A stretch of DNA of 64,000 bases, taken from positions 98,328,397 to 98,392,396 of the forward strand of contig NC_080423.1 in the NCBI RefSeq assembly GCF_029873635.1, read 5' to 3'. Within the stretch, counting starts at the first letter, position 1. Each line of letters starts with the position of its first letter. Source of the DNA: Malania oleifera (taxonomy: Eukaryota > Streptophyta > Magnoliopsida > Santalales > Ximeniaceae). The translations under genes and the position numbers were made by a program. The notes beneath the pieces are model-generated. The model saw only the letters and a program-made list of their open reading frames with translations. It did not search any database and was not told the origin of the DNA. Shown piece by piece: positions 4,788-64,000 of the stretch.

Positions 4788-4910
4788 ATCTAATTTTAGA
4801 ATGGGGTTTATTTCACCATTTACTTTTTCTTTAAGTGACATTTAACTATTTAAGTAAATGCATGCTTCGTTTTTTAAAAAATGAGGATAAAGAATGGGCT
4901 GTTTTGATGG
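4788..4910 (-). repeat. Right inverted-repeat arm
   Basis: Reverse complement of 1566-1690; outer end GGCTGTTTTGATGG on the plus strand. Confidence 0.75.
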
Positions 4911-5183: not shown

Positions 5184-7890
5184 GCCCCTCTCAAATTGAT
5201 GTGAGTTGATCAACAAGCATCAATTTGCTACTTAGGAAGCAATGTCGATGACGAGTGAGAGCCCTGGTGAAGATATCCGAAATTTGTAATTCAGTGGAAA
5301 TGTGTGGAAGAGTGATAACACGAGCTTCAAGTGTTTCACGGATAGAGTGACAATCGACTTCAAAATGCTTCGTGCGCTCATGATGGACAAGATTGGCCAT
5401 GATCTGGATAGCACTCATATTATTGGCATGTAGAGGTATAGGATTGGTCTCAGAAAAACCTAGCTTATCAAGCAAACCTCGAAGCCAAATAATTTCAGAA
5501 CAAGCAAGAGACATTGCCCGGTATTCAGATTTCGTCGATGACTTAGAAACTCTGTCTTGCTTCTTACTCTTCCAAGGGATCCATGCATCACCTAAGAACA
5601 CACACCAACCAGTGATGGAGCAACGTGTATCTGCACAACCAGCCCAATCAACATCCCTATAAGCAGCAAGGCGAGTAAAATTTCCTGCAGGGAAGAATAA
5701 ACCACGAGGAGAAGTGCCCTAAACATAGCATATGATCCTACGGACAGCAGCCAAATGAAGATGACGAGGAGCCTGAAGAAACTGACTGACTTGCTACATA
5801 GAAAAAGAAATGTCTGGTCTTGTAATGGTGAGATAGACTAGACTACCCACCAATTTCTAGTATAAACTAGGATCAGCAAGTAAATCACCCTCCTCTTCGC
5901 GAAGATTGACATTTAATTCCATGGGAGTATCTACAGAAATACCCTTCCGAAGGCTAGCTGTGACCACCAAGTCACTAGCATACTTATGTTGATTGAGTGA
6001 AATACCTGAGGGACTATGATTCACCTCAAGACCAAGAAAATATATAAGAGAGCCAAGATCTTTCATATGAAAGGATTATGAGATATGAGTCTTGAGCTGG
6101 TTAAGTAAAGCAGAATTGGAACCAGTAATCACAATATCATCAACATAAACCAAAAGAACAACAATACCCATGTCTGATTTCCAAAGAAACAATGAAGTGT
6201 CATACTTGCTCTGCTTGAATGAAAATTGTAATAAAGTCGTGCGGAATTTATCAAACCAGGCCCTCGGAGCTTGTTTGAGACCATAAAGAGAACGATGAAA
6301 CTTAAACACATGTGAAGTCAAAGAGGGAAACAAGCCTGAGGGTGGCTTTATATAAATACACACTTTAAGATCCCTGTGAAGAAAGCATTCTTGATATCCA
6401 TCTGATGTAGTTGCCACTCACTGAAAGTAGCAATAGCTAGAATCGTACGAACAGTAGTCATCTTAGCCACATAAGCAAAGGTCTCTTCATAATTGACATC
6501 ATATTCCTGATTATTCCTAAATGCAACAAGGCAAGCTTTGTAACGATCCATACTTCCATTAGATTGGACCTTGACTGAGTAAACCCATTTACAACCCAAA
6601 GGAACAATGGGGGGATGAAAAGGCTCAATGTCCCAGGTGTGATTGGCCTCTAGAGCGACAATTTCTTCTTGCATAGCTTGTCGCCTACAATCCTACTTGG
6701 CAGCATGTGAGCGACATACCAAAGGCTCTGGAGGTGCTGCAACTGACTAAATCTGGAGCATGGTAGGATCAGATATCGGATGAGCTACTGGAAGAAACTG
6801 TAGGCGGGGGTGCCGCGTATACACAATACTTGGTTTAAAACGAGAACTGATTGGATGAGGATCCAAGACCCGTCCTCAAAGGAGGGGAGAATCATAGTAG
6901 AAGAGGAGAGTACAGCGGATATAGGAAAGAAATGTTGATTTTCAAAGAAAATAACATTCCTAAAGATGCGTGTACGATGAAATGTAGGATCATAGCAAAC
7001 AAAACCCTTTTGACAGACATTGAATCCCAAGAATGCACATCGAACATATTGAGTAGATAATTTATGTCACTCATGATGAGGTAAATGAACAAAACATACA
7101 TAACCAAAGGTACGGAGGTTATTGTAACTAGGTCGCTTAGCAAATAAATGGAAATAGGGAGACTCCATGAGTAGGACTTGAGAAGGTAAATGATTAATCA
7201 AGTAAGTAGCAAATTTTAGAGCCTCAGCCCAGAACAAGGATGGAACAGAGAATTCTAGAAAGAGAGTACAGACCACATCTAGGAGATGACGATTTTTCCG
7301 TTCGGCAACTCTATTCTGTTAGGGAGTAGCAAGACATGAATGTTGATGAATAATGCCTTTAGAAGCCAAAAATGCCTGAAACTCAATAGACACATATTCA
7401 CCACCAGAATTTGTGCGTAATGTCTTAATAGAAGCAGAAAATTGATTGTTAACATATGCTAAAAACTTATGAAAGTACGAAAAACCTCAGATTTAGAGCG
7501 AAGAAATTAGATTCAAGTAAATTTGCTATGATCATCAATGAAAGTCACATAGTATTTTTTCATGTGAACTAATCGGGGAAGGTCCCCAAACATCACTATG
7601 GATAAACTCAAAACATTGAGAAGCTCTACTAGCATGCAAGGGGAAGGGAAGAGTCTTGCTTTTACCAAGTTTGCAAAAGGCACACTCAAGAGATAAAGAA
7701 GAACGTTCTTTATTACCAAGTAAACCAGAGTTCAATAAATGAGATAAGATCTAAGTATTGGGATGTCATAAACGATGATGTCACACCATACTAAGATCTA
7801 AAACACTATTACAAGCAAAAGAATTAATAGAAGAAACTAGAGAACGTGCTAGAACAAGCAAAAGGAGTGGAAACAAGCGCCCTACTTTAG
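5184..7890 (-). mobile_element. Ty1/Copia retrotransposon fossil, pol region
   Basis: Minus-strand pieces occur in Copia order: a GAG-pre-integrase stretch near 7650-7790, integrase around 6900-7500, reverse transcriptase about 6080-6670 with a YVDDI active-site box, and RNase H about 5190-5600 with the SSTKSEYRA motif. The gag half and the 5' LTR are missing; the element stops at a junction near 7880-7890 with another LTR. The reading frame is broken in roughly eight or more places, so this is an old, dead copy. The lineage within Copia was not assigned. Confidence 0.88.
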
Positions 7891-8234: not shown

Positions 8235-8260
8235 GGGGTGAGACACCTCTCAGTAAGGAA
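8235..8260 (-). other. Conserved LTR block with imperfect palindrome
   Basis: GGGGTGAGACACCTCTCAG followed by TAAGGAA; the GAGACACCTCTC part is an imperfect palindrome. The same block recurs at 58271, 59138 and 60009, each followed 25-30 bp later by GTGTGTGGC or GTGTGTGAC. Confidence 0.7.
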
Positions 8261-9576: not shown

Positions 9577-9900
9577 GAAGAGAGAGAGAGAGAGAGAGAG
9601 CTTCAAAATCTAGAGAGAGAGAGAGAGAGATAATCCATAACTTAGCAATGAAGAAACCCAAAAGATCCTTTTATAGACCTTTGACCCGAGGGATTTTGTT
9701 GACGAAAAGGTGCCTTCGTCAATGAAAAGTCAGGGATTTCGTCGAGCAATCAGAGACTTCGTCAACGAAGCCTAATATTTCTAATTTCCGCTGCTCGGCT
9801 TTTTTTCGTCGACGAACCTCTAAATTTTGTCGATGAAAAGCCTTCAATCTTCGTTGACGAATTATGACTTCATCGACGAAGTCTACAGAATTTCCATTTT
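9577..9900 (-). promoter_or_regulatory. LTR promoter cassette: palindrome array, TATA, (CT)n
   Basis: On the minus strand, a cluster of TCGTCGACGA (exact at 9806-9815) and near variants at 9700-9880 precedes CTATAAAAGG (9667-9680), which precedes CT runs (9577-9632). The same order is seen at 9960-10136, 57590-57882, 63368-63690 and 63780-63985. Confidence 0.6.
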
Positions 9901-9950
9901 TACCCCTCTTTTACAATATAAACCCACATCTCACGGTTCGGGTTCTTACA

Positions 9951-10088
9951 CGAACTGAGTGGCTGGCTCATCGACGAAGGCGCTGCCTCGTCAACAAATT
10001 TGACTCAATCAAAGGCTCTATAAATATCATTTTTGGTTGCTTAAGAGTAAAGAAAACCCAAAATATATATATATCTCTCTCTAGAACC

Positions 10089-10139
<51 letters not shown>

Positions 10140-55258: not shown

Positions 55259-57515
55259 ATCTCCCACTTGGACTATATGTGTAATCTTATAATTATGTAT
55301 TGCAAAAAAATAACCAAATGAGCTCAATTTTGCTGTCATACCAAAATGTATCTATAACCAATCCGGTCCATCAATTATACTAACATAGGATCAAAGTGGC
55401 CTTTGTTACAATATTCGTAACTCGACCCATCAATAGTCACATATGCCAATACAACTGAATGACATAGATTATGATGTGGACGTGTAGTATGGAAATTTCA
55501 TGCAATGCGATCTTAACATGCTTATTTCCAATTGGTCCACCTTAAACCTTAGTGAGATCAAACCATAACATAAATTAAAGTGTGAAAACCAAACTTTATT
55601 TTTGCAGAAAATAACCTCAAAATAATCTATAAACTGGAATTACTAAAAACCATGTCTATATCTAAAAAAAAAATTCATCAATTACAAACTCCCACTAAAA
55701 CTGAACATCATCTAGAAATATGACACCCATCTGAGTAGTGTGCTCATGAAACTATCTGGGTGGCAATCCCTTAGTAAGCGGATTCGCAACCATGGAGTTT
55801 GTACTAATGTGCTCTATAGACAACTGACCACTCTGAATTCTTTCTTTAACAACTAGGAACTTGATGTCTATATGCTTTGACTTCGTCGAGCTCCTATTGT
55901 TGTTGGAATATAAAACTGCAGATTTATAGTCACAAAATAACTTAAGTGGTTTATCAATACTATCCACTATGCGCAGCCCTGTGACAAAATTTCGCAGCCA
56001 TACTCCATGATTAAACGCCTCATAACACGCTATATACTCTGCTGCCATGGTGGAAGAGGTTATAAGAGACTATTTAGCACTCTTCCAGGAGATGGCACCT
56101 CCAGTAAGTAAAAAAATATAGTTCGATGTAGATTTCATACTATCTCGGCATCCGGCAAAATCAGAGTTAGTATACCCGATGATCTCAAGCTGATTTGACT
56201 TCCGATATGTGAGCATGCATTCTTTTGTTCTCTGTAAGTACCGCAAGACCCATTTAGCTGCTTTCCAATGGTCTGCTCCTCGATTACTTAAATACCTGCC
56301 CAACATCCTAGTAACATATGCAATATCCGGACGCATACAAACATGAGCATACATTAGACTACCTATAGCCGAAGCATAGGGCATCTTCTACATTTCCTTT
56401 ACCTCAAAATCATTCTTAGGGTACTGATTGAGACTAAATTTGTCTCCCTTAGCCACATGGGTATCACCTGGTTTACAATCTTGCATGTCATATCTTTTAA
56501 GAACCTTTTCAATATAGCTCTTTTGCGATAGTCCTAAAGTACCTCGGGAACGATCCTGGTGTATTTGTAGCCCTAACACAAAAGAGGTTTCACCAAGATC
56601 TTTCATCTCAAAATTCTTAGCTAGAAATCTCTTAGTTTCGTGCAGTAAGTCTATATCGCTGCTGTCAAGCAAGATGTCATCAATGTACAAAACCAAAAAA
56701 ATATACTTGCTCCCACTGAACTTATGATATACATAGTCATCAATTGAATTCATCTCAAAACCAAATGAGATAATTACCTTATGAAACTTAATAAACCATT
56801 GTCGAGATGCCTGTTTGAGTCCATAGATGGATTTCTTTAGTTTACAAACCATTATCTTTGAGTCTTGTGACACAAAGTTTCTTGGTTGCACCATATAGAT
56901 GGTCTCATCAATGTTACCATTGAGAAACGTTGTCTTTACATCCATCTGATGTAACTCAAAATTGAAATGTGCCACTAATGCCATTATAATCCTAAAAGAG
57001 TCTTTCGAAGAAATCGGAGAGAAAGTCTTTTTTATAATCAATGCCTTCTTTTTATGTAAAGCCCTTCGCAACAAGACGAGCCTTGTACCTTTCCACATTG
57101 CCTTTTGAATACCTCTTGGTCTTAAATATCCATTTACAACCAATGGGTTTCGTACCTTCTGGCAATGGGACAAGATCCCACGCGTCATTGTCCTTTATGG
57201 ACTTAATCTCCTCATTCATGACATCAATCCACTTCTGAGAATTAGAACTTTCCATTGCTTGACAGAAGTTAATAGGATCATCTACCATCACTTCAATGTC
57301 TACCCCATGTTCTTGAAGAAATACAATGTAATCATCTGACACTGTACTTCTTCTCTTTCTAGTGGATCTTCTTAATTAATGGCATAGGTTTTTTGAGGAG
57401 TAAGAGTTTGTTCTCCTGGAATAATTTCTTGGGTGGGAGGTTCTACGACATTGCCTTGAATTAATGTGCCATGAACAAGGTCAGGAATAAAATCTTGATC
57501 AATGCCAACAACATT
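55259..57515 (-). mobile_element. Ty1/Copia retrotransposon fossil, pol region
   Basis: Minus-strand pieces in Copia order: reverse transcriptase at about 56390-57340 with a YIDDILL box and SIYGLKQASRQWF, then the connection region (56070-56384, CRDSMKSTSNY) and RNase H (55752-56048, SSTKSKHIDIK). Integrase and gag are missing because the element is cut at 57515 by an inserted LTR element. There are about four frame breaks in what remains, fewer than in the Copia at 5184-7890, so it is probably younger. Confidence 0.88.
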
Positions 57516-57882
57516 TGTAGAGACCCGAACCCATAAAATAAGGAAATAAATCAAAAAGGGTAAAAAGGAAATTTTGACAGGCCTCATTGACGTAGCCAAG
57601 GTTCTCGTCGAGGAATGCCCTATAAGGTTTGTCACCGAAATTCAGAGCCTCGACAATGAATAGATCCCAACTGACAGGGAAAAATATCATACTAGGGTTT
57701 GTCGACGAATGAAGAGGGTCGTCGACGAAGAGCCTTCCATGGCTTGTCGACGAAGGCACCACTCGTCGACGAATTTGGCCAAGTTAAGGGGTCTATAAAT
57801 ATCATTTTTAGTTGCTTAATGGTTAAAAAATCACAAAAGATCTCTCTCTCTCTCTCTAGAATCGGCAAACTTTCTCTCTCTC
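57516..57882 (+). mobile_element. LTR, 5' part, inserted in the Copia fossil
   Basis: Starts TGTAGAGACCCGAACCC at 57516 with Copia sequence directly before it. It contains the palindrome array (57590-57775), TATA box CTATAAATA (57793-57801) and CT runs. It is cut at 57883 by the next inserted LTR; the remainder should lie beyond the window. Same family as 9951-10325. Confidence 0.7.
57590..57882 (+). promoter_or_regulatory. LTR promoter cassette: palindrome array, TATA, (CT)n
   Basis: TCGTCGACGA is exact at 57719-57728 and 57763-57772, with near copies around 57618, 57700 and 57744. TATA is at 57793-57801 and CT runs at 57841-57882. Confidence 0.65.
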
Positions 57883-58750
57883 TGTAATGACCTGCCTAAA
57901 TTACCATATATATATTTTTTCTTCATATAATAGCATGCCAATAATCATAATAACAATAAACATAATCCACCCAGACCTCTGGGTACTAGGGAATATACCT
58001 GTCATATATCACTGACACCCTAGCAGCGGAAAACATACATCATATACATAACAAACCAATCGTCCAAATACAATACCAGAATTTTACAACAAGTCATATA
58101 AATGTACACACATCCACAAACAATCATAAAGTTCCCTAGGGTCACTACCCAAAAACCTATCTGACCCTAGCATAGCGACTTACCCTTCTGCCAGGGTAGA
58201 TCAAGCAACCACTAACGTCGCGGAGCTCTATCCGCTCCTCTACCTAGATTCCTTGAAATGTTTTAGAGCTGGGGTGAGACACCTCTCAGTAAGGGAAATA
58301 AACTATTATCAGTGTGTGGTAACATGAGTATTTCACGTGTCATAAGCATATACTGTACATAAATCATATATGAGAAATTTGTCTAATAAATACTGAATAA
58401 ATATATTTGAAAGTAACATACATATCATGCTATATATCTGTATATGTAAAACATCTTATATCACTGTATAATACGTGAAATAAATCCCAAAATGGATAGC
58501 TAGCTGATGCTATGTATTACCCCCACATGACTGGGTTGTGTGGCTCGAAGGTTGGACCTAGCACTGGCTGGCCGACCATGCTAGATCAATATAAGTCTGT
58601 AAGTACGATGGGCCCGCCCAACAATGGTCCGGACTGCCAGGGGGAAGTCTACAACTCTACACTGAAGCCACATCGACCGCCAATCTCCCATAGTCCCTTG
58701 CGGCATGTTGTAGCACTAACATGATTTGAATACATATATAGCTACGGTAA
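57883..58750. mobile_element. LTR, 5' part (TGTAATGACC family)
   Basis: Starts TGTAATGACC inside the CT run of the previous LTR. It carries AGCAGCGGAAAAC and the conserved TGAGACACCTCTCAGTAAG block. No GGTCATTACA end occurs before 58751, where another LTR starts, so its other half is expected past the window end. Confidence 0.6.
58271..58295. other. Conserved LTR palindromic block
   Basis: GGGGTGAGACACCTCTCAG then TAAGGG, followed by GTGTGTGG at 58313. Same block as 8235-8260. Confidence 0.7.
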
Positions 58751-58846
58751 TGTAGAGACCCGGATAATTATCGTAATTTAGTAATAGAAGAAGAAGAGAA
58801 AAAGGAATTAAAATTAGAATTTAAACAGGGTCTCGTCGACAAACAC
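58751..58846 (+). mobile_element. LTR, left part (TGTAGAGACCC family)
   Basis: Starts TGTAGAGACCCGG. It is cut at 58847 by a solo LTR and resumes at 63771; the flanks of the insert (AACAC) are duplicated. Confidence 0.7.
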
Positions 58847-59137
58847 TGTAACGACCTCAAAATTCTTATCATTTTCCATTGTTTTTTCTTTTATATACAA
58901 TAAACATTCCTACGCAGCGGAAACACAAATCATAAAACTATTTATATATAAATTGTACAATACCAGATTCTAAAATATACAGACCATACAAAAATGCCAC
59001 TCCAGTATCATCTATCCCAAAAACATACACAATTTTCCCAAAAACTCACCCTATAACCAGGGTGACCAAACACTCTCTCTATCCACGAGCCTGATCTGCT
59101 CGCCTATTTGACTCACCTGAAAAATGTTAGAATAAAG

Positions 59138-59162
59138 GGGTGAATCGACGCTCAGTAAGTGG
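59138..59162. other. Conserved LTR palindromic block (diverged)
   Basis: GGGGTGAATCGACGCTCAG then TAAGTGG; GTGTGTGGC follows at 59179. The stem bases have changed (GAxxCGACGCTC) while the frame words are kept. Confidence 0.6.
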
Positions 59163-60008
59163 AAATATGCTATCACTAGTGTGTGGCAACTAAGTTAATG
59201 ATACTTTTAAAATAATGACTGAACTGTAATGTAATAAATCATCTGTAAATCATATCTTTCAAGCATATCTTTCTTTCTTTATTTAAAACATATTGTATCA
59301 TCTGTTTTCTACTTTTCATACTGGTAATATCATACTATACTGTAAAACTGTAAATATATAAATATCTGTACTTTATCCTTGGGACTCTGTACGTCATGAT
59401 TTAACCCCTTATAACAGGGTTGTGCGGCCCGTAGGCTGGACTCTATCTGGTCGGCCCTCCAGATAGGTCATCATACTCTACATTACCTCAGTCCGGCCAA
59501 ACTGCATCCTCTCTTAAGCTTGGGATTGGCTACTACCTCATCAAACCGGCCCCCTCAACCCAGTATACTGGGGAGCTGTATACTCTCCGAGCACGGCTGA
59601 CGGTACCCACATGTAATACCCCGAACCCTTAAACCCGGGTCCGGTGCATTATACCTAATCATATCCTCATAAATCATATTCCATAACATACGCAGTGAAA
59701 AACATGATCATAATCTCCATATATAACATAATACCAGAGTTTACTAATTCTAACTATAATCTATAATAAATCATCAAACACCTGCATTTCCATAATTACA
59801 TATATCTCCAAAACATTTCAGTATGTTCACAACTTTCTTTTCTCCACAGACTTAAAATATAAGGACGTAAAACATAAATATTTGCATCCCATAATTAACA
59901 TAGAAATATACCATTTTCTTTTTCTATTTCCCGATAATGCTATAAAAACCCTCGAGCTTTCAAAGCTCGATCTCGAGGAAATCCTGAAAAAAAGATAAAT
60001 TCATATTC

Positions 60009-60034
60009 GGGTGAGACACATCTCAATAAGAGAA
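60009..60034. other. Conserved LTR palindromic block
   Basis: CGGGTGAGACACATCTCAA then TAAGAGAAG, followed by GTGTGTGACC at 60055. Confidence 0.65.
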
Positions 60035-60734
60035 GAAACAATATATTAAAACAGTGTGTGACCAACATAAGTTTATAAATGACATATTATTTAACATTTG
60101 AAAATCCTTAACCTAATTTTCACAATCATTCCCTGAACCTAATCAAACAAATGCAAATGTTTACCCACGAGATTTTCCGAGGATAGGGGTGATTACCCAC
60201 CCATACAAGTAGCACCCCTTTGCTCTGATACATTTGGCAACCCAAAGGTCACAATTTAAGCATACCAGGACACTCACCTTACTCAGTAAGCCCTTAAGTG
60301 TTAAATTGATCTCGTACTCATACAGTTCATACAAAAGTTTATCGGCGAAGGCAATAAGGATAGGGAAATCTACCTGCCTATACAAGTAGGTTCCCTCTGC
60401 CCTAGTACGTTATGCGGCTACTGTCACATCTGTAGCTACTAGTGCACTCGCCTTACTCAGCAAGCCCTTCGGTGAAAGGTACGGCTCGCCCAATCATAAC
60501 ATGTTCTACGTACATGGATACTTCTAATATCATAATACATCATTATTTCCATCGTTATTCAATCATTCGCATTCTTTCATGTTCATAACTTAACATTTCC
60601 TTGTGTTTCACTTTAAGTGACTCTTTCCCATTTGTATCATTCACATTTCACATTTCATTTCCATTCCATTCATTCCCTTTTTCATTTCATTTTCATTTCA
60701 TACTCATTTTTATTTTAATTCATAAATACTTGGC

Positions 60735-61072
60735 ATCTTTCTAGCTGTGGTTGGTTAGCTTCGGCATCCTTTTAGCCGTGGTCGGCATCTTTTCAGCCGT
60801 GATTGGTTAACTTCGGCATCCTTTCAGCCGTGGTCGGCATCTTTTCAACCGTGATTGGTTAGCTTTGGCATCCTTTTAGCCGTAGTCGGCATCTTTTCAG
60901 CCGTGATTGGTTAGCTTCGGCATCCTTTTAACCCTGGTCGGCATCTTTTCAGCCGTGGTTGGTTAGTTTCGGCATCCTTTCAGCTGTGGTCGGCATCTTT
61001 TCAGCCGTGATTGGTTAGCTTCGATATCCTTTCAGCCGTGGTCAGTATCTTTTCAATCGTGGTTGTTTCCAT
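60735..61072. repeat. Minisatellite, six ~56 bp units made of two halves
   Basis: Each unit is TTGGTTAGCTTCGGCATCC, TTTTAGCCGTGG, then TCGGCATCTTTTCAGCCGTG. The two halves (~28 bp) are related to each other, so the array probably grew from a half unit. Confidence 0.85.
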
Positions 61073-62438
61073 GATTGTATTAACACTCACATGCAGCATA
61101 TTTCATATATCATTTTCATGCTCATTTCATTTTCTATATATCTTGCATCTTGTATATATATAACATAATTTCACACAAAATTCTATTTTACTCATGCTAC
61201 ACAATTTAGCAATAAAATTCATACACTGTCTCTAAAATAAGCCAACCAACATTTAATGTTTATATACTAAAAATATCTTTTATTTCATACATAAATACTC
61301 TGAAAATATGTTTCCACTTTCATCAGTTCATTTTCACATATACATGTCTAATAAACAGCCATAAACTCGGAAAAAAATATAATTAAAATGGCTGACATTT
61401 TACCTATACTAAAAAATTACACGTACATATAACACAATTTATTTTTTTCCATTAAATTCATAAAAATTTTGATTTAATATATATATTTTTCCCTTACCTG
61501 GTTTCTTGAACTACGCCAATAGGGATTCCGAAAAATACCTGCGGCGCTCACCCGGACCCTGAAATTAAATTCCTAGTTCCAATAAATTATTTATGAATAA
61601 AATATTAATTTAATATTTCCTAGGGCCATAATTCCTAAATAAATATTAATATCCTTAAATTTAGCCAAATTGCCAAATTCCTCAAATCCCACTCTCGCTT
61701 TGGAGTAGGGTTTAGAAAACCCCAATTGAAAAATTACCTACGTCAAAATGATGATAACGACGACTAGGACCCCGTGGTGGTGTCCGTTAGTCGATTTAAC
61801 CACATATTAACGGCGAAATTGAGAAAATGAGAAAAAATTACCTTTCCCCATGAGCAGTACTTAAGCTGTTCCTATGAAAAATCTGCTCCAGTAGAAATGT
61901 CGGCAGCGAAACCAAAAATCCAACGGCACCTTCCATTTCCCGATCCGTCGCAAACTCGCTAAGTAATTGAGAGAAGGAGAGAGACGGAGACGAACACGTA
62001 GGAAATTTTTCAGAGGGGGGGGCATGCTACCTGCTGCTTTTGTTCTTCTTCTTCCTTTTTCTTTCTTCTTCTTTACTTTTTAACTTTACAGATATATATT
62101 TTATATATATCTTATTTCATTTAGTTTTTAGTTTTTTTTTTCCAATGTAATAACGTTTCATTTAATTACTAATTATTTAATTATTTAATTTATCTTAATT
62201 TAATTTCTTTAATTTTAATTTTCTTTTCTTTTCCCACGCCATTCCTTTTATTTATTTATCTGTTATTTTATTTATTTATTTTTTTCTAAATTATTTTAAT
62301 CCTTTTAAATTTCTAGGTCTTTACACCACATACTATCTGAGCTATGTGGTTGCACTCTATTTGTATCTAACAACGGTACCGTGCTCTGTAATCTGTATCT
62401 GTCTGTGTAACTTTCCTCAAGGGTCTGATACTATATAC

Positions 62439-62470
<32 letters not shown>

Positions 62471-63366
62471 ACTGTTTTCATCGTGTTTCAAAAATTATCA
62501 TAATTCTGTCTTTCTGTACTATAAACACTGTATTTGTAGCATCTTGATGCTACCTCTATATATCTATCTGTGTATTATGTATATATATACTCTGTATGTG
62601 TACTGTATGTTATGGTAATAGGAAAAACATGGCATGTTATAACACTGTATATATGTATATACTGTTCTGTAATAAACTGTAATATAAAATACTGATCTGA
62701 GCATCTGTATACATGTATTTGGATATATGTATATAACCGTTTCATGAACTATTCATGTAAAACTGTATATGCATGTACATTTCTCTGCGAATATAAATCT
62801 ATCTCTGTATAATCTCATATGCTGGAAAATCATATCAAATGTATATACTATCTATATCTTTGTATTTAGTATAGTATGATGTTTCATAACAACTGTATAA
62901 ATTCATTCTTCACACGAAAAGTCTACTTAGGCCACACAAACATTTATGCTCATTTTCTATAAAAACTGTATAATAAACTGACATAAAAATATGCTTATAA
63001 AATCTCTATTAACTCTATTAAAACTCCTAGCAAAGCATATTTCCCTTACCTCAACTTTGAAAAGCCCCTATAAAAATTTGGCTCTATACTCGCAGGATTC
63101 TTAGATCAACCTCCTGAAAACACAATATCCCAGAACAAAATATTATTATTTTTCTGCCTATGTCATTTCTTATAACTACCATAAAGTCAAAAACTCATTA
63201 GAAGACCTTACCTAGAATTTGGGATGAAATCTAATTTCGTTTTCTCGACGATCCGCTCTAGCAAACTTGTAAGGAATTTCACCAGGAGCGTCGTGGTAGC
63301 CTCAGATCGTCGATCCGGTAACTGGTGGGGCCGGAAACGAAGAGAGAAGGGAGAGGAAGTAGTAGG

Positions 63367-63367
<1 letters not shown>

Positions 63368-63440
<73 letters not shown>

Positions 63441-63690
63441 CCTTTTTAAATTGAAATGAATCCCGAATTCCGTTTATATATATAACAGGGGATTTCGTCG
63501 ACAAGACCCTGTATTCGTCGATGAGTACTACACAAATTTCATCGACGAGACCTTGTATTCATCGACGAAATTCAGGCTGCTTTAGAATCCCTCTTGGTAT
63601 TTTCTCGTCAATGAAGCCCTGTGTTCGTCGACGAAATTCTTAAAGCCTTCGTCGACGAAACCCTGTGTTCATCGACGAAGCTTGGCAGCT
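63368..63690 (-). promoter_or_regulatory. LTR promoter cassette: palindrome array, TATA, (CT)n
   Basis: Exact TCGTCGACGA at 63625-63634 and 63649-63658, with five or so near copies at 63485-63685. TATA (minus) at 63473-63484, then a ~70 bp (CT)n run on the minus strand (63368-63440). Confidence 0.65.
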
Positions 63691-63770
63691 TCCTTCTATT
63701 TTTGCTTTCATCTCTCTCTTTCTCTCTCTCTTAATATTTAAATATTATTATTATTTTTTGGGTCGTTACA

Positions 63771-64000
63771 AACACGCTTGAGGGGATCATCAACGAAGAC
63801 ACGTGTCTTGTCGACGAGAAGATACCGAGAGGTTATATTTCAGTTTTGAATTTCGTCTACGAGGAGTAAGCATTCTTTGACGAACTTTCTTCTTGACCTC
63901 ATCGACAAAGACCAGTGTATAAATAGCTTAAACTAGAATTTTTTGCAGATTTTTCATGCGAAAATCCTTCTCTCTCTCTCTCTCCTGTTCGTCCCCTCCC
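63771..64000 (+). mobile_element. LTR, right part (continues 58751)
   Basis: After the AACAC duplication the TGTAGAGACCC LTR resumes, with palindrome variants, TATAAATAG (63918-63926) and CT runs near 63970. It runs off the window. Confidence 0.65.
63780..63985 (+). promoter_or_regulatory. LTR promoter cassette (diverged palindromes)
   Basis: Variants TTGTCGACGAGA (63809), TCGTCTACGAGG and TCATCGACAAAG precede TATAAATAG (63918-63926) and the CT run. No exact palindrome is left. Confidence 0.5.

Follow-up and report, generated by a model that had tools for sequence, protein, structure and literature searches.

Among long terminal repeat (LTR) retrotransposons, the closest described counterparts of the promoter array reported here are the RM boxes of Sireviruses (Ty1/copia). 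As described in the accessible part of PMC2829016, these boxes are CpG-rich palindromes. Each RM-bearing element has eight or more of them, clustered as CpG islands in the LTR before a conserved TATA box, and they are retained as the LTRs diverge. The array studied here was found in 64,000 nucleotides of Malania oleifera DNA (RefSeq assembly GCF_029873635.1, contig NC_080423.1, positions 98,328,397 to 98,392,396 of the forward strand; this whole stretch is called the window). It is built of two quartets of a 12-bp palindrome, YTCGTCGACGAR, placed upstream of the TATA box of LTRs, and is probably a U3 enhancer of a plant Ty3/gypsy group that has been kept by selection.

As with the Sirevirus RM boxes, the palindromes cluster upstream of the LTR TATA box, here at 12 of 13 TATA...CT cores. 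The GTCGAC centre of the Vitis Sirevirus RM box CGGTCGACCG is common to YTCGTCGACGAR (PMC2829016, accessible part). Unlike Sireviruses, the three carriers tested are Ty3/gypsy elements and not Ty1/copia, which has an RVT_2-type pol with the integrase before the reverse transcriptase. Also unlike the RM boxes, YTCGTCGACGAR is without the CGG-CCG core (328 sites), a core to which Tnd-1 is the listed Sirevirus exception in the same part of PMC2829016, and no array was present in the two internal regions examined here. Fixed spacing is not described for RM boxes in that part of the paper, whereas the ladder of sites is fixed here. Judged by its sequence, the array resembles the Sirevirus RM boxes but is no member of that group, since superfamily and CGG-CCG core differ.

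The maize Sirevirus palindrome CACCGGAC...GTCCGGTG was reportedly found by Bousios in 2016 to be a small-RNA hotspot. The accessible part of PMC10760457 treats Sirevirus palindromes as cis-regulatory and, in maize, as hotspots of small RNAs. The maize elements and the LTRs studied here both have clusters of palindromes in the cis-region of the LTR, which in maize are tied to the host epigenetic response (PMC10760457, same part). Motif and superfamily differ from those of the maize palindrome, and hairpin covariation was inconsistent in the arrays studied here. In tobacco, the repeated U3 boxes of Tnt1 and Tto1 are stress-responsive enhancers upstream of the TATA box; compared to the present array, these Ty1/copia elements have few copies of the box and other motifs. 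Dense arrays of a short motif, largely in one transposon group, are also known from the VANC/VANDAL system of Arabidopsis, where they evolve by tandem repeats (PMC5735166, accessible part). VANDAL differs in being a DNA transposon with a directional 9-bp motif and an element-encoded factor, and fixed spacing is unmentioned in that part of the paper.

Searches of the open-licence literature were judged by titles and abstract starts. Among the matches listed, no plant-LTR paper was seen for the literal motif, and no similar arrays were seen beyond Sirevirus and VANC. Palindromic motif, LTR, TATA box and gypsy in combination gave 0 papers. Within the literature searched, a fixed ladder kept in two LTR families seems to be undescribed.

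A sequence-only reading of the window had proposed a CpG palindrome cluster, a TATA box and a CT tract as a design common to five LTR copies. The cluster was real, as TCGTCGACGA occurred 21 times in the window at up to one mismatch, compared to a mean of 0.13 and a maximum of 1 in 100 dinucleotide shuffles, and exact palindromes were confirmed at 9806, 57719, 57763, 63625 and 63649. The unit itself was larger than proposed: in the 328 sites of 41 arrays it is the 12-bp palindrome YTCGTCGACGAR, with TTCGTCGACGAA as the 12-bp exact word and a variable outer base (Y...R). The exact word TTCGTCGACGAA occurred 37,861 times in the host assembly (1.494 Gb, 510 contigs), where its reversal occurred 67 times and the same-letter palindrome TTCGACGTCGAA seven times. 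Twenty grid stretches of 10 kb each held 59 sites at up to two mismatches, and 59 other palindromes made of the same half-site letters averaged 5.7 sites, and reached 25 at most, in the same DNA. Clusters of at least three sites numbered 11 in these 200 kb, spread over 8 of the 20 stretches; as a very rough extrapolation, the whole genome would hold 80,000 arrays. Exact sites were nearly confined to clusters (100/101) in 61 fetched loci (L001-L008 and L029-L081), which had been picked by an exact site and all lie in the first 2.5 Mb or so of contig 1. Searches for the ladder gave 0 matches in IMG/VR viral contigs (as two sites at 20-bp spacing) and 0 in GTDB genomes (as three sites).

The geometry of the array was determined from the window and 81 loci, a cluster being defined as at least three sites with up to three mismatches, no more than 75 bp apart. 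The full ladder has up to eight sites with start-to-start spacings of 20/24/20/44-51/20/24/20. The 78 clusters gave 492 spacings, of which 244 were at 19-21 bp, 126 at 24-25 and 82 at 43-51; 33 were at 53-74 and seven at other values below 27, and the range 27-42 was empty. The range of roughly 20-45 bp read earlier thus resolves into 19-21, 24-25 and 44-51 bp, and the spacings beyond these are larger gaps over decayed sites. Genome-wide, 2,059 pairs of exact sites were spaced at 19-21 bp and 116 at 27-42 bp. In the part of the latter that was inspected by eye, many were three-site runs with the middle site decayed or intact. The complete eight-site frame passed the filter in 41 of the 78 clusters; the others were shorter, unoriented or more decayed. 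In L001, L003, L005, L053, L066 and others, the ladder was preceded by an extra lone site, about 53-65 bp away on the LTR-start side.

The order of sites, TATA box and CT tract was as proposed in all five window copies (by eye), two of them, A and D, on the minus strand. A TATA box lay no more than 60 bp past the last site in 52 of the 78 clusters, at 7-11 bp in 33 (22 at exactly 8 bp), at 18-20 bp in 17 and farther away in two. From TATA box to CT tract the distance was 41-56 bp in 41 of 44 cases. In this tally 14 clusters were oriented via the CT tract alone and 12 were unoriented, and the rule joined A with B and gave A and L001 the wrong orientation, errors that were corrected in the later analyses. 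In the window the TATA box lies 8-9 bp (D, E) or 19-20 bp (A, B, C) past the last site, and not 15-60 bp as stated in the earlier reading. By arithmetic, the two distances (8 and 19-20 bp) differ by about one helical turn, with 8 of 52 clusters at 10 or 11 bp. One helical phase for both quartets was also considered, by arithmetic only, and was rejected; the central gap of 44-51 bp holds no single phase.

A blind check ignored the palindrome and located TATAWA followed by a CT run within 20-60 bp, in the window and the 20 grid stretches. Cores less than 600 bases from a 5' end were omitted, so that copy D dropped out and 13 cores remained. At least three sites were present in the 250 bp upstream of 12 of these cores (8 of 9 outside the window), in line with the enrichment that the earlier reading had asked to be sought there. 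The corresponding numbers were 2/13 at 300-550 bp upstream, where neighbouring arrays accounted for the sites, 0/13 in the 250 bp downstream, and 72/4000 for random windows.

The arrays fall into two LTR families. Family I has the TATA box about 8 bp after the array (D, E, L009 and others), and family II at 19-20 bp (A, B, C, L024 and others). Between B and C, identity is 77% over a stretch of 145 bp. LTR bodies were compared with BLASTN (E <=1e-5, at least 80 bp) in 19 copies with about 1 kb beyond the promoter; both L024 LTRs are counted, and L015 was placed in family I despite a degenerate TATA box. Body homology was found in 23/28 pairs within family I, in 22/45 pairs within family II and in 0/80 pairs between the families. 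L006, with its TATA box at 18 bp, matched one of ten family II bodies and none of eight family I bodies. Array and body assignments were never discordant in the 19 copies. The different families proposed earlier are therefore real in that their bodies are distinct, but the five window copies make up two of them. Promoter exchange between the two families seen, the other suggestion of that reading, was rejected on the same 0/80 matches and constant agreement. A global-alignment version of the exchange test gave a gapped identity of about 0.6 in every class and was therefore uninformative.

Sites are constrained while their surroundings drift. In an alignment of 17 arrays (seven of family I and nine of family II compared, L006 left out), between-family identity was 36% in spacers, 36% upstream and 37% downstream, with 26% for shuffled spacer letters compared ungapped; it was 96% at the non-CpG inner site positions and 70% at the CpG positions. 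Similarly, among the 820 pairs of 41 arrays, those with spacers 22-35% identical (shuffled letters 31%) still had 77% of site letters in common (200 pairs), and those with spacers more than 80% identical had 86% (seven pairs). Inner T/A positions were retained in 97-99% of the 328 sites. With sites alike over near-random spacers, spacing held and families distinct, the functional site suggested earlier is supported. The 562 site mismatches consisted of 278 C-to-T or G-to-A changes at CpG, 207 changes of the outer base (T to C at position 1, A to G at position 12) and 77 others. The simplest reading is that the arrays were near-perfect at insertion and would later have decayed via deamination of methylated CpG. 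Tandem homogenisation, or concerted evolution, of the sites was also considered. Sites in different slots were 0.780 alike within an array and 0.773 between arrays (same slot between arrays, 0.784), and since these values are nearly equal, homogenisation does not maintain the sites.

Carrier elements were identified from L009 (family I) and L024 (family II), in which LTR pairs of 86.5% and 90.3% identity, respectively, flank about 5 kb. L009 showed matches to Retrotrans_gag (19.3 bits, below cut-off), RVP_2, RVT_1, RT_RNaseH, Integrase_H2C2 and SH3_Tf2-1, the Integrase_H2C2 zinc-binding domain being positioned after RNase H. L024 matched Retrotrans_gag (21.2 bits, below cut-off), RVP_2, RVT_1, RT_RNaseH and SH3_Tf2-1, and L015 (family I) matched RVP_2, zf-CCHC and RVT_1. 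No match to the integrase core was found in L009 or L024. A primer binding site of the tRNA-Met type, TGGTATCAGAGC, follows the LTR in L009, L015 and L024, solo LTRs D and G have 5-bp target site duplications (TSDs), and the RNase H region of L009 is 68% identical to that of L024. By these domains, L009, L015 and L024 are assigned to Ty3/gypsy. They are probably chromoviruses: L009:7803-7898, after SH3_Tf2-1, gave a partial Chromo match (18.9 bits, cut-off 25.1), and L024 gave no chromodomain match. Their lineage may be Tekay, which is a guess on our part. The copia element of L025 has its own LTRs and was taken as a separate element near the array.

In the proposed enhancer, each palindrome would most likely dock a protein dimer, for which a perfect palindrome is suited. 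Within each pair of a quartet the sites are about two helical turns apart, and the last site lies a short distance upstream of the TATA box; the fixed spacing could let adjacent dimers cooperate, and so recruit the transcription machinery or hold the promoter open. The docking dimer is probably a host factor, as no spare open reading frame was seen in the two copies examined. After insertion, the arrays would be methylated. Readings of the array as heat-shock, as-1 or W-box elements were a misfit to the palindrome. In a bolder version, which is conceivable but rather doubtful, a dedicated host protein with nearly no exact sites beyond retrotransposons would have been captured by a fixed platform for eight dimers, and the same logic of CpG palindromes and TATA box would have arisen, or been kept, in both LTR superfamilies.

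Several points weigh against the enhancer proposal. Most arrays were located via the motif itself, and the blind TATA...CT check alone is free of this; the orientation rule favours the TATA-bearing side, so that the TATA distances are flattered. Families I and II may descend from one ancestral array, in which case the kept geometry does not stand for many independent events. Unit duplication plays some part, as short spacers in different slots were slightly more alike within an array (0.409) than between arrays (0.358). We know of no transcription factor with a YTCGTCGACGAR-type palindrome as its site, and with nearly all exact sites inside arrays, a host factor would meet few of them in host DNA. 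Finally, solo LTR G has similar ends and is without an array.

An RNA-level role is improbable. Neighbouring palindromes would then pair in the 3'-terminal U3 of the genomic RNA, or between RNAs, in packaging, dimerisation or small-RNA production, a role that has been proposed for the palindromes of Sireviruses. A spacing of 20 is the sum of a 12-bp stem and an 8-nt loop, and pairing in 17 arrays was 0.766 compared to 0.743 for permuted sites, a value reached by 9 of 1000 permutations, in a test that included copy E in a misassigned frame. When 41 arrays were compared with slot-preserving shuffles, z was 2.7 and 3.8 for two hairpin pairs but -1.3 and 1.0 for the other two; the non-hairpin pair 1-7 gave 3.0 and self-pairs ranged from -2.0 to 4.0, a pattern that is inconsistent. 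Small RNAs are drawn to the palindrome clusters of maize Sirevirus LTRs (PMC10760457, accessible part), whereas the tie to the TATA box favours the DNA level.

It is likewise unlikely that the array is a silencing target, that is, a methylation platform or dock for host silencing made of CpG-dense palindromes, which would persist only via its linkage to the promoter. CpG transitions are the largest decay class and fit heavy methylation after insertion, and the CpG observed/expected ratio of the window is 0.53. The methylation hotspot suggested by the sequence-only reading thus has indirect backing, but it leaves the 97-99% conservation at non-CpG inner positions and the fixed spacing unexplained. 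A pure silencing target should be lost by the parasite, whereas non-CpG inner positions and spacing stay here while spacers drift, and LTR G is without an array.

A self-encoded anti-silencing factor that reads short-motif arrays, as VANC of the VANDAL transposons does, is very unlikely here. The near confinement of exact sites to the element would agree with such a factor, and VANC21 requires dense motif arrays in non-coding regions (PMC5735166, accessible part). However, the VANC motif is same-oriented and non-palindromic, and gag-pol matches extend across the 5-kb internal region in both L009 and L024. No Pfam family beyond gag-pol was found in the scanned sense-strand pieces of these two copies (L009:4156-4383 and the antisense strand lay outside the scan), which counts against a DNA-binding factor encoded by the element, although the frames of both copies are broken. 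A functionless, neutral ancestral tandem repeat, or a recent exchange of promoters, is just as unlikely, for although units were gained and lost (E, L068, L080), two families have the array in common and similarity of the 60-bp upstream flank was uncorrelated with spacer similarity (Spearman 0.02, 820 pairs, a weak test), many pairs have random-level spacers but alike sites, within-array homogenisation is absent, and the bodies never match across families while array and body classes agree.

The LTRs carry other conserved stretches. GGTAAG, which is splice-donor-like and mostly AGGTAAGG, lies 200-290 bp past the array in all but one of 18 copies (three in the window, whose arrays end at 63494 (-), 9695 (-) and 9998 (+), and 15 in L002-L026), compared to 475 of 20,000 random 90-bp windows. 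A second GGTAAG is present at 350-450 bp in 13 of the 18, in many about 140-165 bp beyond the first. GGTAAG is found in both families despite their non-aligning bodies; it could possibly be a leader intron or a U1 docking site. Near the LTR 3' end, a 20-bp block, TTACTGAGAGGTGTCTCACC, with GAGA...TCTC symmetry, is present at up to four mismatches in both families and in G. It lies at 8237, 58273 and 60010 of the window (all on the minus strand), at 2743 and 9859 of L009 and at 7418 and 572 of L024, and is absent from D within four mismatches. With GGTAAG and this block conserved, the palindrome array is one of several conserved islands in otherwise drifting LTRs.

Six window LTRs with visible U3 (A-E and G) were examined. 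Array A (9695..9880, minus strand, family II) has eight sites with 5'->3' spacings of 19,24,21,47,20,23,20 and a TATA box at +19 bp. The 5' end of its LTR is TGTAAGAACC on the minus strand (9941..9950), and the candidate 5-mer for a TSD is without a partner. Array B (9967..9998, plus strand) consists of the last two sites, the only ones left in a family II LTR that is truncated at its 5' end, with the TATA box at 10019, 19-20 bp past the last site, and the CT tract at about 10073-10137 (CT tract positions here and below are by eye).

The remaining LTRs are nested within 57516-64000. LTR C (plus strand, family II) starts with TGTAGAGACC at 57516..57525, and its array at 57583..57773 fits the eight-site frame with spacings of 21,24,21,49,20,25,19, sites 1 and 4 having four mismatches each. 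Its TATA box (57794..57801) is 20 bp past the last site and its CT tract at about 57840-57882. The 3' part of LTR F (57883..58750, minus strand, ending in TGTAATGACC on the plus strand) sits in this CT tract; its orientation and nesting were read by eye, and its U3 is outside the view in the window. LTR E (plus strand, family I) had been placed at 63780 by the earlier reading. Its true start is TGTAGAGACC at 58751, and because it is split by solo LTR D, the site at 58832 in its 5' part (58751..58846) belongs to E as its first. The remainder of array E (63786..63909) has five sites with spacings of 21,45,21,25, followed by a TATA box at 63918, 8-9 bp past the last site, and a CT tract at about 63968-63985; two units are missing relative to eight (by eye, compared to L004).

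Solo LTR D (58847..63770, minus strand, family I) runs from TGTAACGACC to GGTCGTTACA on the minus strand, has the TSD AACAC on both sides and lies inside the array of E. Its own array (63494..63679, minus strand) has eight sites with spacings of 20,24,20,46,20,24,20, a TATA box 9 bp past the last site and a CT tract at about 63370-63440, seen as a GA run on the plus strand. Nested in D is solo LTR G (59612..62325), with the TSD CCACA on both sides and assigned to the minus strand by eye from its CT tract. No palindrome array was found in G, which holds a single three-mismatch site at 60338. With its similar ends and CT tract, G is a natural negative, and the array is not universal. A tandem repeat with a 52-bp period lies at 60675-61090 within G. 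The nest order is C > F > E > D > G, four LTRs lying successively within C as a record of insertion order; it is based on LTR ends and inspection by eye, TSDs being established for D and G only. Adjoining LTR C, at 56388-57194 on the minus strand, is a Ty1/copia reverse transcriptase fragment (RVT_2, E 3.6e-51). A 94-nt inverted repeat (1596-1689 and 4788-4881, 94% complementary, 3.1 kb apart) is perhaps a DNA transposon.

How diverging LTRs go on recruiting host transcription is poorly known. In the present elements a promoter grammar is legible from the sequence, as site, spacing and TATA distance are kept across two families whose LTR bodies do not align, at what extrapolates to tens of thousands of loci. 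The ladder would offer a direct bait for the binding protein and would let a block by CpG methylation be tested. The Sirevirus design, described in Ty1/copia, would be extended to Ty3/gypsy elements. If the bolder version with a captured, dedicated host protein were true, palindrome arrays would be a key that opens plant transcription in general, and one that is hard for the host to remove.

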